Shown here in pieces: positions 176-37,439 of a DNA stretch of 44,809 bases. How positions within the stretch are numbered: the stretch's first letter is position 1; each line of letters begins with the position of its first letter. Location: contig JASGVX010000034.1 of assembly GCA_030054735.1 (NCBI GenBank), positions 1-44,809 of the forward strand, given 5' to 3'. A program made the translations under genes and the position numbers. Under the pieces are notes generated by a model. That model was not told the DNA's origin and did no database searches. It saw only the letters and a list, made by a program, of their open reading frames with translations. The DNA comes from Methanobacteriota archaeon. GTDB lineage: Archaea > Halobacteriota > Methanosarcinia > Methanosarcinales > Methanosarcinaceae.

Positions 176-388
176 TAGAAATGAGATTGAAGTTTGGTTA
201 ACATGTGGCTCAACTATCACCACATATATAACTACTGTATCGTTTTTTTATAAAAATTTAGTATGAGATATTGTTAATTGATCATATGTAAACCTAAAAG
301 TTATGTACAAATACTATGCATTATTTCAAAATAGGCATCAACAAAAATTATGAAAAATTAAATGTCTACCTGATGAAAGAAGGTTAAA
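176..388 (+). repeat. Promoter-like repeat family, copy A
   Basis: This is one of four related copies; the others are 3911-4194, 36691-36816 and, inverted, 37266-37439. The match to copy B starts at TAGAAATGAGATTGAA and continues, diverged but easily aligned, to about 388. It contains an imperfect hairpin, ATGTGG...CCACAT (about 203-224), that runs straight into the TATA-like string CATATATAA. Compared with copy B it lacks the first ~75 bp, and IS630 DNA abuts it instead. No gene starts within 400 bp downstream; the next is ftr at 843. Confidence 0.75.
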
Positions 389-3910: not shown

Positions 3911-4006
3911 TCCTACATTCAGCAGGTCGACATTAAAAATCAGAACATTTTTCTTGATGTCGTTTTATTGCATCCATTGGGTAGAAATGAGATTGAATGT
4001 TGCTTA

Positions 4007-4040
4007 ACATGTGGCTCAACTATCACCACATATATAAATA
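4007..4040 (+). promoter_or_regulatory. TATA box abutting a hairpin/operator-like inverted repeat
   Basis: The inverted repeat ATGTGG (4010-4015) / CCACAT (4026-4031) runs directly into TATATAAATA, a good match to an archaeal TATA box. Transcription would start about 25 bp downstream, giving a leader of roughly 130 nt before the ATG at 4199. The hairpin and TATA box are kept in all four repeat copies, which favours a functional promoter over chance. A symmetrical site this close to TATA could bind a repressor; that is inference. Confidence 0.55.
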
Positions 4041-4174
4041 CTGGATCATTTTTTCATAAAAGTTTAGTATGTGATATTATTAATTGATCATATGTAAACA
4101 TAAAAGTTCTGTACAAATACCAGATATTATTTCAAAATCGGCATCAACAGAAAATATGAAAAATTAAATGTCAA

Positions 4175-4189
4175 CCTTCCGAAAGAAGG
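4175..4189 (+). promoter_or_regulatory. Small hairpin covering the ribosome-binding site
   Basis: CCTTC (4175-4179) pairs with GAAGG (4185-4189) around a CGAAA loop. The GAAGG arm is the only Shine-Dalgarno-like sequence for the ATG at 4199, so a folded leader would hide it. In repeat copy A the left arm is mutated (CTACC...GAAGG), so the pairing is not conserved across the family. Confidence 0.4.
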
Positions 4190-4198
4190 ATAGAAGAA

Positions 4199-5173
4199 AT
4201 GAGGCTGATGGAAAAAATGAGTTATCAAAAGCTATTGGAAATCAGTGATGACTGGCTGAAATATGCAATCCGTCTTAACCTGGGACATGAACCTAAGAAC
4301 GATCTTGTTGAAATCAGAAATGCGGCATTAGCTGATGACCGCATAAAAAGATACCTTTCAGATATTGTGAATTTTCATGAAACCCTGGTAACATATCATA
4401 AAAATCCCGTTTTGCCGATACAAAAACTGCTGTTTCTGCTCGATCTCGGATTTGATACGGAAGTTCCGGAAATCAAAGCGGCTATTGAAGAAATTCTAAA
4501 GCACCGGGACGAGCACGGTATTTATCAGTCTATGAGCAATGTTCCCAAGCATTTTGGAGGTAGCGGTGAAGATGTATTTAGCTGGTGTCTATGTGACGCG
4601 CCCTTGCTTTTGCTCGCTCTATTAAAGTCGGATATTGATTATCGTAAATACATCAAACCCGGTGTTGACCATCTGGTATCCTTATGCCGTGATAACGGAT
4701 TCCCTTGCGCCGTGTCACCTGAGCTGGGCAAGTTTCGCGGACCAGGGAAAAAGGCTGACTGCTGCCCATATGCGACGCTGATTATGGCTGATTTGCTGTC
4801 ATATATACCGGAGTATCGGAATTCACAGGCTGCGGTTTCTTCCGTCAAAGCGCTGCTCAGCTTATGGGAAAACAGCCTTACTCAGCATCCATACATGTTC
4901 TTCATGGGCAGGGACTTTCGTAAGCTGAAAGCACCTTCGTGCTGGTATGATATTGTCAGCGTAGCTGGAGTTCTTAGTAAATACGAGTTTGTGCGAGAAG
5001 ACCCGCATTTTCTTGAAATGATTAAACATATAAAAGGCAAACAAGATAAGGATGGTCTTTTTACACCTGAATCAGCATACCAGAAATTAAAGGACTGGGA
5101 TTTTGGACAGAAGAAAGTGCCGTCTCCTTATTTGACATACCTTTGCTATCAAATTTTTAAACGACTGGAATAG
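4199..5173 (+). CDS. Uncharacterised alpha-helical protein, possibly alpha/alpha-toroid fold
   Basis: The 324-residue product has no signal peptide or clear membrane helix. It alternates helices with WCLCDAPLLLLALLKS, DKDGLFTPESAYQ and repeated 'GFPCAV..ELGKF'-like turns. This is reminiscent of the alpha/alpha toroid of prenyltransferases and terpene cyclases, but no catalytic motif (such as DxDD) is visible, so I do not assign an enzyme. The start follows GAAGGATAGAAGAA. Codon use differs from neighbours: CAA, CTA, TTG and a mix of CGT/CGC/CGG arginines, where neighbours favour AGG and CAG. A dispersed repeat ends 4 bp before the start and a MITE begins right after the stop. Acquisition from a bacterium is plausible. 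Confidence 0.65.
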   Translation: MRLMEKMSYQKLLEISDDWLKYAIRLNLGHEPKNDLVEIRNAALADDRIKRYLSDIVNFHETLVTYHKNPVLPIQKLLFLLDLGFDTEVPEIKAAIEEILKHRDEHGIYQSMSNVPKHFGGSGEDVFSWCLCDAPLLLLALLKSDIDYRKYIKPGVDHLVSLCRDNGFPCAVSPELGKFRGPGKKADCCPYATLIMADLLSYIPEYRNSQAAVSSVKALLSLWENSLTQHPYMFFMGRDFRKLKAPSCWYDIVSVAGVLSKYEFVREDPHFLEMIKHIKGKQDKDGLFTPESAYQKLKDWDFGQKKVPSPYLTYLCYQIFKRLE

Positions 5174-5410
5174 GGTCGTGTCCCTGAATTATAGATCAAT
5201 TCTGGAAAAGCGAGTACATCCCATATATTCGATGAATATACTAAGGAATAGTTGAAATATGACTTCAAGTTTTCACTTTGCTAATGGCTCTATAATTGCA
5301 CTTCCCAATATCATTAATGATAATATGGGGTATAAGTGTTTGAAATTAAATTTTCATCATCCCTAAGAGATTCTTATGCTTTCGATTTTCAATGATTCAG
5401 ACCCACGACC
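5174..5410. mobile_element. MITE-like element (about 114-bp family), interrupted copy
   Basis: The terminal inverted repeats are GGTCGTGTCCCTGAATTAT on the left and the complement of GGTCGTGGGTCTGAATCAT on the right. An uninterrupted copy of 114 bp lies at 25128-25241. Here the same sequence is split by the 119-bp element at 5245-5363. It begins immediately after the TAG stop codon of the upstream gene and has no coding capacity. Confidence 0.8.
5245..5363 (+). mobile_element. 119-bp MITE nested inside another MITE
   Basis: The element has terminal inverted repeats GGAATAGTTGAAAT and the complement of GGGATGATGAAAAT. It interrupts the 114-bp element, and comparison with the empty copy at 25128 shows a duplicated TAA on both sides. 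A second copy of exactly 119 bp, inverted, lies at 16438-16556. It encodes nothing. The ends and short TA-rich duplication resemble IS5-group elements, but no autonomous partner is in the window. Confidence 0.85.
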
Positions 5411-5499
5411 AAATATTGATATATCGATAAACACAACCTTGCAAAAAACTGAACGATAAGATACTTAACCATTTCTTCGAAACACCGGTCAGGGCTTAG

Positions 5500-12577: not shown

Positions 12578-14776
12578 ATGACAATTTCAAATGAAGCCGC
12601 AGCCGAAATAACAACCGGCATGGAGACAGTAGAACTTGAGCCCCTGAGGGAAGATAAGAAGAAAATCTTTAATGATATTCAGGGATATTTTGAAACCCAT
12701 CAGAGAGGCTACATTAAGGTTCCTACGGGCTGGGGCAAGACTTTTCTTGCAAAACACATAATGAAAAAATACTACGAGGATGGAAAACTCGTACTTTTCC
12801 TGGTCTCAAAAAACAACCCTCTTCTTAGCCAGACTTATTATGACAGGAAGAAAAATCAACCTCTTTTTCCCAATAGTGATCTTCTCTCTTCCGAACATAA
12901 GGGGGATAGAAAGGAGCTTGCTGAAGCTTTGAAGGCTTTTGGAGCAGGGAAAAGTAAAGGTTTTGTGCTCTTTGCTTCTCTTCAGACAGTACTTGGAAAG
13001 CAGTCCTCTGAAATCAAAGAATTAATTCTTGAATATACCGACATTGCAATTGTGGACGAGATCCATAACTTCATCAACAACAGAGGAAATGATTTCCTCA
13101 ATGAGTTCGGAGAACAGACTAAAATCCTGGGGATGACTGCAACTCCTTTCCAGGGTGTTGTCGGAAATGTCAAGTTCGTGGACGAAATCTCCGGGGATAT
13201 GAGGGAGGTCTATGCAAAGACTCTTCCTGAGTGTATCCTTGATAATGAACTTGCACCTCTCAAGTATACGATTGCTGAAAGTTCGGAAGATATATTTGAG
13301 ATCTTTGACTTTGAAAAGGGTCTCGATGAACTTGACAAACAGGATCTTTTCCTTGATTGCAGCACTGCTGCCAAATTGAAAAAAGTTGTCCGCAGAACCC
13401 AGCTCGCAAAAGATGTATACGATTCGATGATAAAGCAGAAGCATAGAAAGACCCTCGTCTTCTGTGCTCCTGTCCGGAAGCGTGTGTATGGAGCCGGAGC
13501 GGGCGGAAAAGAAATCAATGCTTTCCATGCAAAACTTACTGCATCTGTTTTTAACGGAGAAATATCGGCTCAGAAGCTTGAAAAAGATCCTGATCCTGTA
13601 TTACCTCTCGATTTTGATAATTATACTCCTGATGGGGAATTCAAAAATTCAGCTTTTATAACCTCTGAACTGTCCAAAGATGAACAGAGCGCCCTTCTTG
13701 CAGCTTTCAGGGACGCAGATAAACCGCCTTATATCTTATGTACGGTCGGCATGCTTATCGAAGGTTTTGATTTTCCGGGACTTGAAACCCTTATGCTGCT
13801 GCGTCCCACCCTGAGCATGCGGCTCTTTGAGCAGCAGGTAGGAAGGGTTATAAGGCTATCTCCTGGTTCCGGAAAAGATAAAGGAAACATCTTTGAGATT
13901 TCGGACAGCATCGATTCCCTCTACCAGCGCTTCGGAGATGGTGTTTTTAACGGGGAAAAGGTTGACCAGGTCCAGATGCTCCAGCCTGAAATCCGCCTCG
14001 ATGAGCTTTTCTCTGAAGGAGATGCAGCCCGGGCAATTGAGGAAGGAAAAATAGAGATCAATAAGGTAAACTTCAGAGCTGTCGGAAATGGCAGAGGAAA
14101 AGGTGCACAAATAAGGGAAATGCCTGTAAGGCTCCCTCCAACTGCCATCAGGTCAAAGTATTTCTCACGCCTTCTTGCTCTGACCGAAGAAAAAGACATC
14201 GGAGCTTTTGAGCGGGAAAAGCGGGAACTTATGAGGGCTACCCTGCGGTTTAGAGTAAGGGAACTCAGGGATGCCGAGGAGATTTCCGAGCTTTCAGCCA
14301 GTATAAATAAGCTCAAAAGAGAAGCTTACGAAGACCGCAGGTTAGGGAATGTTTCAAGGAAGCACAAGCCCAAGGTTTTTGGGGAAGTAGAATGGCTCCT
14401 GAAACTTCAGGCCTTGAATTCCCTTAAGTATGATTGCGGGCGCATCTCTATATCCGAGAAAAATAAAATTTTAAGTACCCTGGGTTTTGAACCTGATATG
14501 AGGAAGATAAACAGCCACAGGCTTAAATGCCTTAAACTCGGTTCTGCCCAGAAGACTATTCCTGAGCTTATCAAAGTGCTCGGTTTCGTAAGCCGCCTCT
14601 CGTCTCCTGAAACCTACCAGTTCCTCGATAAAAAGAAAAAAGAACAGTGGAAACGGGAGTTTTTGCCTGCAGTTTACTGGGGCTTCTGTTTCATAGATGA
14701 CTCACCGGAAATCAGGGAGCTTTTCGAGTCCACGGAATGGGACAGGCGGGTCAAAAATATTATCAGGCAAAAATGA
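12578..14776 (+). CDS. SF2 DEAD/DEAH-type helicase with uncharacterised C-terminal domain
   Basis: The ~732-residue protein carries a superfamily 2 helicase core: Walker A PTGWGKT (~50-56), DEIH box in VDEIHNF (~160), motif III-like GMTATPF (~186), and motif VI QQVGRVIRL (~420). This arrangement resembles the SSL2/restriction-subunit branch that moves on duplex DNA. The C-terminal ~250 residues are highly charged and helical (AFEREKRELMRATLRFRVRE and neighbours) and I do not recognise them. A GTG 3 bp upstream is an alternative start; AAGGAC at 12563 fits either. No methylase, nuclease or other defence gene is adjacent, so a repair or antiviral role cannot be chosen. Confidence 0.85.
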   Translation: MTISNEAAAEITTGMETVELEPLREDKKKIFNDIQGYFETHQRGYIKVPTGWGKTFLAKHIMKKYYEDGKLVLFLVSKNNPLLSQTYYDRKKNQPLFPNSDLLSSEHKGDRKELAEALKAFGAGKSKGFVLFASLQTVLGKQSSEIKELILEYTDIAIVDEIHNFINNRGNDFLNEFGEQTKILGMTATPFQGVVGNVKFVDEISGDMREVYAKTLPECILDNELAPLKYTIAESSEDIFEIFDFEKGLDELDKQDLFLDCSTAAKLKKVVRRTQLAKDVYDSMIKQKHRKTLVFCAPVRKRVYGAGAGGKEINAFHAKLTASVFNGEISAQKLEKDPDPVLPLDFDNYTPDGEFKNSAFITSELSKDEQSALLAAFRDADKPPYILCTVGMLIEGFDFPGLETLMLLRPTLSMRLFEQQVGRVIRLSPGSGKDKGNIFEISDSIDSLYQRFGDGVFNGEKVDQVQMLQPEIRLDELFSEGDAARAIEEGKIEINKVNFRAVGNGRGKGAQIREMPVRLPPTAIRSKYFSRLLALTEEKDIGAFEREKRELMRATLRFRVRELRDAEEISELSASINKLKREAYEDRRLGNVSRKHKPKVFGEVEWLLKLQALNSLKYDCGRISISEKNKILSTLGFEPDMRKINSHRLKCLKLGSAQKTIPELIKVLGFVSRLSSPETYQFLDKKKKEQWKREFLPAVYWGFCFIDDSPEIRELFESTEWDRRVKNIIRQK

Positions 14777-14778
14777 TC

Positions 14779-14898
14779 TGATGGTTCCTGACCACTAATG
14801 GTTTCTGACCACTGATGGTTTCTGACCACTTGATGGTTCCTGACCACTGATGGTTTCTGACCACTGATGGTTTCTGACCACTGATGGTTCCTGACCAA
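14779..14898 (+). repeat. 17-bp tandem repeat immediately after the helicase gene
   Basis: Seven contiguous copies of TGATGGTTTCTGACCAC occur. The variable position reads TTTC or TTCC, and one 18-bp copy has an extra T. The array starts two bases after the helicase stop codon. Units are contiguous without spacers, so it is not a CRISPR. Confidence 0.92.
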
Positions 14899-15340
14899 TC
14901 GATTGAATTAGTCATAACATCTGCAGGCAGGAACCTTTTCTTTTCTGCACATTGCAGGATAGATATCGGCTCTCTCTGTTGCAGCAGTTCCGATTTGCTG
15001 TAGTTTCGAACGACTATTTCTAATCATTTCTGATTTTTTCCCAATATTTCAGAAAAAACACATATTTGATGTACGTTCTACTTTCTTATTTTTTAATTTA
15101 TATTGATCTGATAGCTTTGCCTGAAAAATCAAGGTTCCTTTACTGGTTTTGAAGAACCTAACTTTTTATATTTTCTCAAGACCTAATACTTTAATCTCGT
15201 AATATTTAAATCAAATTCAATAAGAAAAAAATATTTATCTTTGTAATCATAATATCATTTATTCATATCAATATTAAATTTTGTATTACACATTTAACTG
15301 ATGATATGGAAAAACGAGGTCAATTGTGAGGAGCGGATTA
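14899..15340. other. AT-rich intergenic region
   Basis: No gene is recognised. The 3' half is very AT-rich and probably holds the promoter of the 15341 gene; no single TATA box stands out. Confidence 0.4.
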
Positions 15341-16437: not shown

Positions 16438-16556
16438 GGAATGGTGAAAATTTAATTTCAAACACTTATACCCCATATTGTTATTAATTATATTGGGAAG
16501 TGCAATTATAGAACCATTAGCAAAGTGAAAACTTTAAGTCATATTTCAACTATTCC
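16438..16556 (-). mobile_element. 119-bp MITE, second copy
   Basis: This is the reverse complement of the 119-bp element at 5245-5363, with the same length and terminal repeats GGAATGGTGAAAAT / GGAATAGTTGAAAT. It is flanked by TTTTA on the left and TAAG on the right. About nine tenths of positions match by eye. Confidence 0.85.
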
Positions 16557-16624
16557 TAAGCAATAGTAGAGTGGGAACAGAAATACTTGAAATTATATTC
16601 AGTAGTTCTTATCAACCATTGAAA

Positions 16625-25127: not shown

Positions 25128-25241
25128 GGTCGGGTCCCTGAATTATAGATCAATTCTGGAAAAGCGAGTACATCCCATATATTCATGAATATATTAAGAG
25201 ATTCTTATGCTTTCGATTTTCAATGATTCAGACCCACGACC
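25128..25241. mobile_element. 114-bp MITE-like element, uninterrupted copy
   Basis: Ends are GGTCGGGTCCCTGAATTAT and the complement of GGTCGTGGGTCTGAATCAT. It matches the split copy at 5174-5410 almost base for base and serves as its empty-site reference: here TATTAAGAGATTC runs straight through the position where the other copy holds the 119-bp element. It has no coding capacity. Confidence 0.82.
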
Positions 25242-30156: not shown

Positions 30157-30290
30157 TTTTATCGATGTTTAATTTTGTCGATGTTTAATTTTGTCGATGT
30201 TTAATTTTATCGATGTTTAATTTTATCGATGTTTAATTTTATCGATGTTTAATTTTATCGATGTTTAATTTTATCGATGTTTAATTTTTA
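30157..30290. repeat. 16-bp tandem repeat upstream of the TPR gene
   Basis: Eight contiguous copies of TTTAATTTTRTCGATG occur; R is G in the copies nearest the gene and A in the rest. A further partial unit, TAATTTTGTCGA, lies at 30403, past a 112-bp inserted element. The array is without spacers and lies 33 bp upstream of the TPR gene start. Confidence 0.92.
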
Positions 30291-30402
30291 GGACTTACAC
30301 AGTTGAATTGAAAAACACGAGCGGAAGTAACTTAACTGTATAAAATCAAATAATGTTGACTAGCCCGTTGTGTCTGATTTTACATTTCAAGTGCGTAAAT
30401 TC
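30291..30402. mobile_element. 112-bp MITE-like element inserted in the 16-bp array
   Basis: The left end GGACTTACACAGTTGAATTG and the complement of the right end, GAATTTACGCACTTGAAATG, match at about 15 of 20 positions. It is flanked by TAATTTTTA (30282-30290) and TAATTTTGT (30403-30411), consistent with a duplicated target of about 8 bp, though both also match the array unit. It encodes nothing. Confidence 0.6.
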
Positions 30403-32535: not shown

Positions 32536-32540
32536 TGTTT

Positions 32541-32640
32541 CCAACTTATTCAGATACTTTCCAGCTTATTCAGATACTTTCCAGCTTATTCAGGTACTTT
32601 CCAGCTTATTCAGGTACTTTCCAGCTTTTTCAGTTCCTGT
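32541..32640 (-). repeat. 20-bp tandem array at the 3' end of the M3 peptidase gene
   Basis: Five exact 20-bp units of the type CCAGCTTATTCAGGTACTTT occur. The peptidase stop codon (complement of TCA, 32610-32612) falls in the fourth unit, so the array has grown from the gene's last codons. A sister array with the same core (TCCAGCTTATTCAG) lies at 35171-35288. Confidence 0.93.
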
Positions 32641-34802: not shown

Positions 34803-35169
34803 AAATAAACCCCCCGAAACCTGCAAATCAGTATAGAGCAGTCAGTTATCGCCGAAAAATCATTTTATCGTGAAGGGAAGAATCGGCTTTAGAGCTTTAT
34901 TCGAAAATAATCATTATTAAAAACTTGATATATAACTCTGGTTTCCCATATTAATTTTCAGGTTTAGACGTCCAGAATCCTTATTCAAGACTATAGCTGA
35001 CGCTTCATGCTGTGCAGATTATTAATTATACAGTTTTAAAGCCGAAGCAAAGTTTGTAATAATTGTTAAATAGTACCATATATATTAATTTTGGCTTATA
35101 CTTTTAAAATATAATAAAAGATTTCTTAAATAAGTGGGTACTTGTGCTTGAATTCACAAAAAAATTCCT
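34417..35169 (-). repeat. 750-bp segmental duplication, copy 2
   Basis: This is the same sequence as 31631-32378 in the same orientation, here feeding the M3 peptidase gene. It carries the same TATA box, the run of C's that becomes the ribosome-binding site, and ~125 codons of anchor and Ig-like domain. The inner edge is the junction with the peptidase body; the outer edge meets the 20-bp array at 35171. Confidence 0.93.
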
Positions 35170-35170
35170 T

Positions 35171-35288
35171 TCAAGATTATTCAGTTTTTTTCAAGTTTAT
35201 TCAGTTTCTTTCCAGCTTATTTAGTTTCTTTCCAGCTTATTCAGTTTCTTTCCAGCTTATTCAGTTTTTTTCAAGTTTATTCAGTTTC
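35171..35288 (-). repeat. 20-bp tandem array, sister of the 32541 array
   Basis: Six 20-bp units such as TCCAGCTTATTCAGTTTCTT occur. The shared core with the array at 32541-32640, and the equal position relative to the duplicated segments, show it was copied with them. Its right end overlaps the stop codon of the PepF remnant. Confidence 0.9.
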
Positions 35289-36690: not shown

Positions 36691-36816
36691 CCTACATTCG
36701 GAAGGTCGACATTAAAAATTAGAACATTTTCCCTGATCCTGTTTCATGCTATCCTCTAGATAGAAATGAGATTGAAGCTTGGTTAATATGTGGATCAACT
36801 ATCACCACATATATAA
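36691..36816 (+). repeat. Promoter-like repeat family, copy C
   Basis: The copy begins CCTACATTCGGAAGGTCGAC, contains TAGAAATGAGATTGAA and the hairpin, and is cut right after ACATATATAA by the inner element. It matches copies B and D. It points rightward, toward the nuclease gene at 37546. Confidence 0.8.
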
Positions 36817-37265
36817 CCTTAACTCCAACTTTTTATGGGGAATATAATAGAGCTTTTCATGAAAAACATGTTTTTCAACAACAAGCGCTAGAAAGCCAAA
36901 AGAATAGTAGTTTACTTCATAAATTATTCCCATAATTTTCGAATGTTCGATAAAAAATTAAAACTGTAAATGCTTTTGTAGCCAAAACTAAAGAGAAATA
37001 AAACCATTTCTTCCTCAAATTTCTTCTAATCTTTAGTAAAATCATTAAGTTTACGAAAACTACAGATTTAATTTATTGGAAAACTGATTTATTTTCAAAT
37101 GCAATTGACTTGATTACGGAAAAGCACATGTTTGATATATCCCCTATTGAGTAAGGATATATTTTTCATCCATTTTTTCATCAAAATCACAATCAAAAGG
37201 ACTGAAAGAACTTATAAAATATATATTGATTTTAGTGTATTCCATACAAAAAGTCGGAGTTAAGG
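36817..37265. mobile_element. 449-bp non-coding element with CCTTAACTCC terminal inverted repeats
   Basis: The left end is CCTTAACTCCAACTTTTTAT; the complement of the right end is CCTTAACTCCGACTTTTTGT. GGAAT follows shortly on both. I find no protein-coding frame inside. It separates repeat copies C and D. It behaves like a MITE or the shell of a deleted insertion sequence. Confidence 0.65.
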
Positions 37266-37439
37266 TTAATAATATCTCATGCTAAACTTTTATGAAAAAA
37301 TGATTCAGTATTTATATATGTGGTGATAGTTGAACCACATGTTAACCAGCTTTTAATCTCATTTCTAGACAGGGGATACCATAAAACGACATCAAGAAAA
37401 ATGTTCTGATTTTTAATGTCGACCTGCCGAATCTAGGAT
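37266..37439 (-). repeat. Promoter-like repeat family, copy D (inverted)
   Basis: On the minus strand it reads TCCTAGATTCGGCAGGTCGAC, then TAGAAATGAGATTAAAAGC, the hairpin and TATATAAATACTG, as in copy B. It faces copy C, so the two form long inverted arms around the 449-bp element. It keeps ~45 bp downstream of the TATA box that copy C has lost. Confidence 0.8.

Follow-up and report, generated by a model that had tools for sequence, protein, structure and literature searches.

The window analysed here, a stretch of 44,809 nucleotides from a Methanosarcinaceae archaeon (contig JASGVX010000034.1, assembly GCA_030054735.1), carries a dispersed repeat directly upstream of a bacterial-type gene, and raises the question of whether this repeat is a promoter that moves or a transposon that contains promoter-like sequence. 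A preliminary description of the window had favoured a mobile regulated promoter built around an ATGTGG/CCACAT inverted repeat fused to a TATATAA box, and had found no known type of feature to which it could be assigned. We consider it almost certain that this repeat represents a miniature transposon (MITE) of the IS1634 type, non-autonomous and mobilised in trans, and that its complete copy in the window, copy B, lies at a rearrangement breakpoint. The window also contains a methanogenesis gene, encoding formylmethanofuran--tetrahydromethanopterin N-formyltransferase, at 774–1736, in keeping with the Methanosarcina origin assumed in the preliminary description.

The ends of the repeat have been defined by aligning 37 near-complete copies together with their flanks. 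The consensus is 278 bp long and has sharp ends, beyond which the flanks are unrelated among copies. It starts with CCTACATTCGGCAGGTCGACATT and ends with the inverted form of CCTACATTCGGCAGGTCGACATT, giving terminal inverted repeats (TIRs) of 23 bp. When the genome was scanned with the TIR, allowing up to 3 mismatches, 125 matches were obtained, compared with 0 for the reversed sequence used as a control. The genome is a 2.88 Mb draft in 149 contigs, and a search of all of it with copy B gave 63 segments, of which 43 are substantial matches, which places the copy number at ~40 and extends the family beyond the four copies in the window. A search across relatives, which the preliminary description had proposed, matched the family in 27 of 60 genomes, nearly all of the same genus. 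The short, multi-copy element contains no open reading frame of note and has no coding capacity.

All four copies that had been recognised in the window are present. Copy A (176–383, plus strand) is truncated at the 5' end and lacks approximately the first 70 bp. Copy B (3912–4189, plus strand) is complete at 278 bp and is substantially matched at 42 other places in the genome. Its span had earlier been given as 3911–4194, which identified a real copy and missed the outer 23-bp inverted repeats. The left TIR of copy B, at 3912–3934 on the plus strand, is CCTACATTCAGCAGGTCGACATT, with 1 mismatch to the consensus; the right TIR, at 4167–4189 on the minus strand, is diverged and reads AATGTCAACCTTCCGAAAGAAGG on the plus strand, as placed by the 37-copy alignment. 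Copy C (36691–36816, plus strand) consists of the first 126 bp only, and copy D (37266–37437, minus strand, inverted relative to copy C) of the first ~172 bp only. These two head-to-head half MITEs are separated by an element at 36817–37265 that has the ends CCTTAACTCC..GGAGTTAAGG and a 97.6% copy in L089, and which may have inverted the DNA lying between two interrupted MITEs. Directly before truncated copy A, positions 1–158 resemble by eye the C-terminal end of an IS630-type transposase; the 51-residue piece encoded there has no match in Pfam. Short tandem arrays with units of 15–20 bp are also found between genes, at 483–643, 14761–14903, 30157–30300, 32538–32635 and 35169–35286.

The mobility suggested in the preliminary description is upheld, in the form of a transposon. 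Among 47 clean-ended copies from the own and related genomes, 22 are flanked by an exact 6-bp target duplication, whereas random pairing of left with right flanks would be expected to give 0.64. Duplication lengths of 3 to 10 were tried and gave a sharp peak at 6, with none or few at other lengths. An empty site has also been found. On contig C14, an uninterrupted dispersed repeat reads GGATCACAGAAAATCG and contains a single ACAGAA, while L030 on contig C131 has the same dispersed repeat with the arrangement ACAGAA-MITE-ACAGAA. The pair represents the state before insertion and the duplication produced by it. The host repeat itself (GGATCACAGAAAATCGAAGAATTTCTGGG..GCGGTC..CGCTTCGCTC..AAGAGGAC; L030 1480–1900 and L281 140–250) is very abundant in the genus, with matches in 29 of 31 genomes.

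A candidate source of the transposase is found in the same genome. The identical 23-bp TIR lies ~50 bp before the start of transposases, whose first part matches DUF4277, on contigs C24, C59, C96 and C99. In this IS, the left end is the identical TIR and the right end (CCTACATTCGGCAGGTTAACGTT) is similar but not identical, and the transposase copies with the matching terminus have either decayed or are interrupted by the end of a contig. An intact IS1634 transposase is absent from this 149-contig assembly, in which fragments and contig-end pieces are seen, as expected for a draft in which a multi-copy IS has been collapsed. In relatives, complete elements of ~1.7 kb end in inverted repeats of this type and are flanked by 6-bp duplications. 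The complete element of genome G007 measures 1719 bp from TIR to TIR, and its transposase scores 389.5 bits against the NCBIfam equivalog NF033559 (IS1634 family transposase), for which the cutoff is 100. The duplications of the IS copies in G007 (TAGTAT), G014 and G028, which include TTATAT and GTATAT, have the length of those made by the MITE. Against this assignment, the complete IS of the relatives ends in GGTAAAC or GGTTAAC and the MITE there retains GGTCGAC, which makes the pairing of the two in those genomes tentative, and the interior of the MITE bears no resemblance to the IS. On sequence grounds, we infer that transposition of the MITE depends on an IS1634 transposase.

Elements of this kind have been published, so the repeat does belong to a known type of feature. 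An ISMba11-related MITE (IS1634) of M. barkeri is 247 bp long and has 23 copies, an IR of 20 and a DR of 6, and an ISMac10-related MITE (IS1634) of M. acetivorans is 249 bp long and has 15 copies and an IR of 18 (PMC3852290, Table 4). The element described here shares with them the genus (by gene content and kin), the transposase family, the size class, the copy number class, a similar TIR length and the 6-bp duplication. It differs in its length of 278 bp, its ~40 copies and its TIR of 23 bp, as judged from the published figures. We regard the element as an IS1634-type MITE of Methanosarcina.

The main alternative is that the element is a mobile regulated promoter, kept for its TATA box and operator-like hairpin, which would transcribe the DNA downstream, including the foreign gene at 4199. 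The motifs on which this proposal is based are all present in copy B (ATGTGG at 4009–4014, CCACAT at 4026–4031 and TATATAA at 4031–4037, forming a plus-strand block at 4009–4037). The hairpin and TATA box had been regarded as the best-conserved part of the repeat, an assessment that comparison of more copies does not bear out. In the own genome, the stretch that runs from ATGTGG through TATATAAA averages 1.70 mismatches per column and the interior 1.99. Its variation does not stand out from that of the remaining interior (permutation p = 0.30), and better conservation is seen in 84 of 248 equally sized windows. In the comparison of the four window copies, the hairpin-TATA piece happened to be a part common to all of them. 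Dinucleotide shuffles of the element contain a 6-bp inverted repeat in 88% of cases, TATATAA in 22% and both side by side in 2%.

Conservation across species separates the two halves of the proposed promoter. Of 47 full copies from other species, 41 contain YATATAA, and among 13 species consensuses the divergence of ATATAA is 0.026 and that of the stretch in columns 120–162 is 0.112, compared with an interior average of 0.176. These values favour retention of the TATA-like sequence and to that extent speak for the promoter proposal. The intact ATGTGG/CCACAT pair, on the other hand, is found in 0 of the 47 copies, where the usual sequence is CGTGTGGCTCAACTCCCACGACA, and the CCACAT arm has an above-average divergence of 0.276. 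These counts rule out the hairpin as a conserved operator. Other interior blocks are similarly conserved or invariant, including GTTAAC (0.000), ATGTAAACCT (0.015) and TTTCAAAATCGGCATCA (0.056), and the conservation of TTTCAAAATC is similar to that of the TATA stretch. As judged from these alignments, the TATA-like stretch is best regarded as one among several conserved interior blocks, and the inverted repeat as unconserved. The TIR cores, at 0.015 and 0.000 per ten-column bin, are among the least variable positions, and such invariant ends are required by a transposase.

The positions of the copies relative to genes also bear on the promoter proposal. Among 80 full copies, none interrupts an open reading frame of at least 90 codons. 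Of the 80 copies, 17 have a gene start within 300 bp on their 3' side and 14 on their 5' side, and copies in the own genome have 22 gene ends and 7 gene starts as neighbours, with open reading frames called mechanically and the flanks of some copies cut by contig ends. The lack of an orientation bias speaks against a directional promoter. The positions are those of insertions tolerated between genes, unlike those of a promoter family. The preliminary description had named, as an outcome that would refute its reading, copies placed without regard to genes and a TATA box that is not conserved. The placement is largely of this kind, although a TATA-like stretch persists fairly well from species to species. 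Promoter-bearing MITEs do exist, as in the Correia elements of Neisseria, whose promoters have been shown experimentally and whose copies favour positions upstream of genes (PMC10969869). The MITE described here resembles the Correia elements in being a short TIR-bounded repeat that has promoter-like sequence and sometimes lies upstream of a gene, and differs from them in having no gene-start bias and in that its promoter is putative. A regulated promoter as the function of the family is therefore improbable, the arrangement at copy B, which stops 9 bp short of an ATG and replaces the upstream DNA of the donor, being a further point in its favour.

The arrangement around copy B has been resolved by comparison with four relatives. 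Native homology of the window reaches furthest in G005, where it stops at 3911, immediately short of the MITE, and it resumes at 5411 in three relatives. Between these positions lie the MITE (3912–4189), a bacterial-type block on the plus strand (4190–5173) and, directly after its stop codon, a second, unrelated MITE-like element (5174–5410) with the TIR GGTCGTGTCCCTGAATTAT (GGTCGTG)..CACGACC. The second family has another copy at 25128–25241, plus others, and its copy at 5174–5410 contains a third, nested dispersed element (5231–5363) that recurs at 16438–16560 and many other loci. Homology to bacterial DNA starts at 4188–4190, so that copy B is bordered by native sequence on one side and foreign sequence on the other. 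The native sequences to the left of 3911 and to the right of 5411 lie far from each other in relatives whose genome is a single contig, which indicates a rearrangement and not an insertion into one site. By this comparison, copy B is taken to be a rearrangement junction beside a horizontally acquired gene, and its lack of a target duplication follows from this position. There is no support for two MITE copies having simply exchanged their flanks reciprocally, since the remainder of native locus A, on contig C50, ends in IS-like DNA and not in a copy of the 278-bp MITE.

The close fit of the two elements around the bacterial-type block, whose limits at 4190–5173 they bound to within a few bases, could also suggest that 3912–5410 is a cargo transposon in which both MITEs jointly mobilise the bacterial gene. 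However, the TIRs of the two elements differ, and a single transposase would not be expected to cut both outer ends of 3912–5410. Together with the separation of the native flanks in relatives, this makes such a capture module very improbable. Least credible of all is a non-mobile repeat family with a structural or non-coding RNA role (REP-like or sRNA), which would agree with the wide distribution in the genus, the several short conserved interior blocks and the missing coding capacity, but which has no match in Rfam even to E = 1 and is refuted as a sole explanation by the clean TIRs, the 6-bp target duplications and the empty site.

With copy B understood as a copy of an IS1634-type MITE at a breakpoint, the gene behind it can be considered in its own right. 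It had been described as an orphan of foreign appearance, and this has been confirmed. A search of 59 other genomes, from genus to order, gave no match to the protein, and the gene has up to 80–88% identity to genes of Bacillota/Chloroflexi, e.g. Acetanaerobacterium and Anaerobium, with DNA homology of up to 88% spanning 4188–5173. The coding sequence ends with the stop codon at 5171–5173 and may start at the ATG at 4199, 4208 or 4220; judging by the aligned sequences, the homologues appear to begin at the equivalents of 4208 or 4220. Against the four bacterial homologues tested with YN00, dS exceeds dN ~fourfold, which indicates that the protein has been under constraint, mostly in bacteria as far as the comparison tells. 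The protein contains the conserved motifs LCDAP and KDWDFGQKK, and searches of Pfam, NCBIfam and PDB sequences with it found nothing. Its predicted structure, mostly helical and alpha/alpha-toroid-like, is of high confidence (pLDDT 90), but its structural matches are weak and are to alpha/alpha-toroids, squalene-hopene cyclases among them, with a best E of 1.6e-3 and TM < 0.5.

Transcription of this gene from the TATA box of copy B is plausible. A chance rearrangement could have placed the archaeal TATA box of the MITE, and possibly a ribosome-binding sequence (GAAAGAAGG), before a bacterial gene that had arrived by horizontal transfer and lacked an archaeal promoter, so that the MITE domesticated the gene; we regard this fuller scenario as unlikely. 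In the mechanism that we propose, IS1634-family (DUF4277) transposases of Methanosarcina would recognise the ~23-bp TIRs of the MITE in trans and insert it mostly into intergenic AT-rich DNA, with duplication of a 6-bp target, and the copies would later decay and recombine. Recombination between mobile elements would then have made the junction at copy B, where the TATA box of the MITE may incidentally transcribe the newly arrived gene.

A puzzling "promoter repeat" has thus become an ordinary miniature transposon of Methanosarcina, for which the ends, the duplication length and the likely transposase are now supplied. Copy B and its junction illustrate cleanly how miniature transposons can border both a rearrangement and a gene transfer from a bacterium to an archaeon, and the junction allows a direct test of promoter acquisition.
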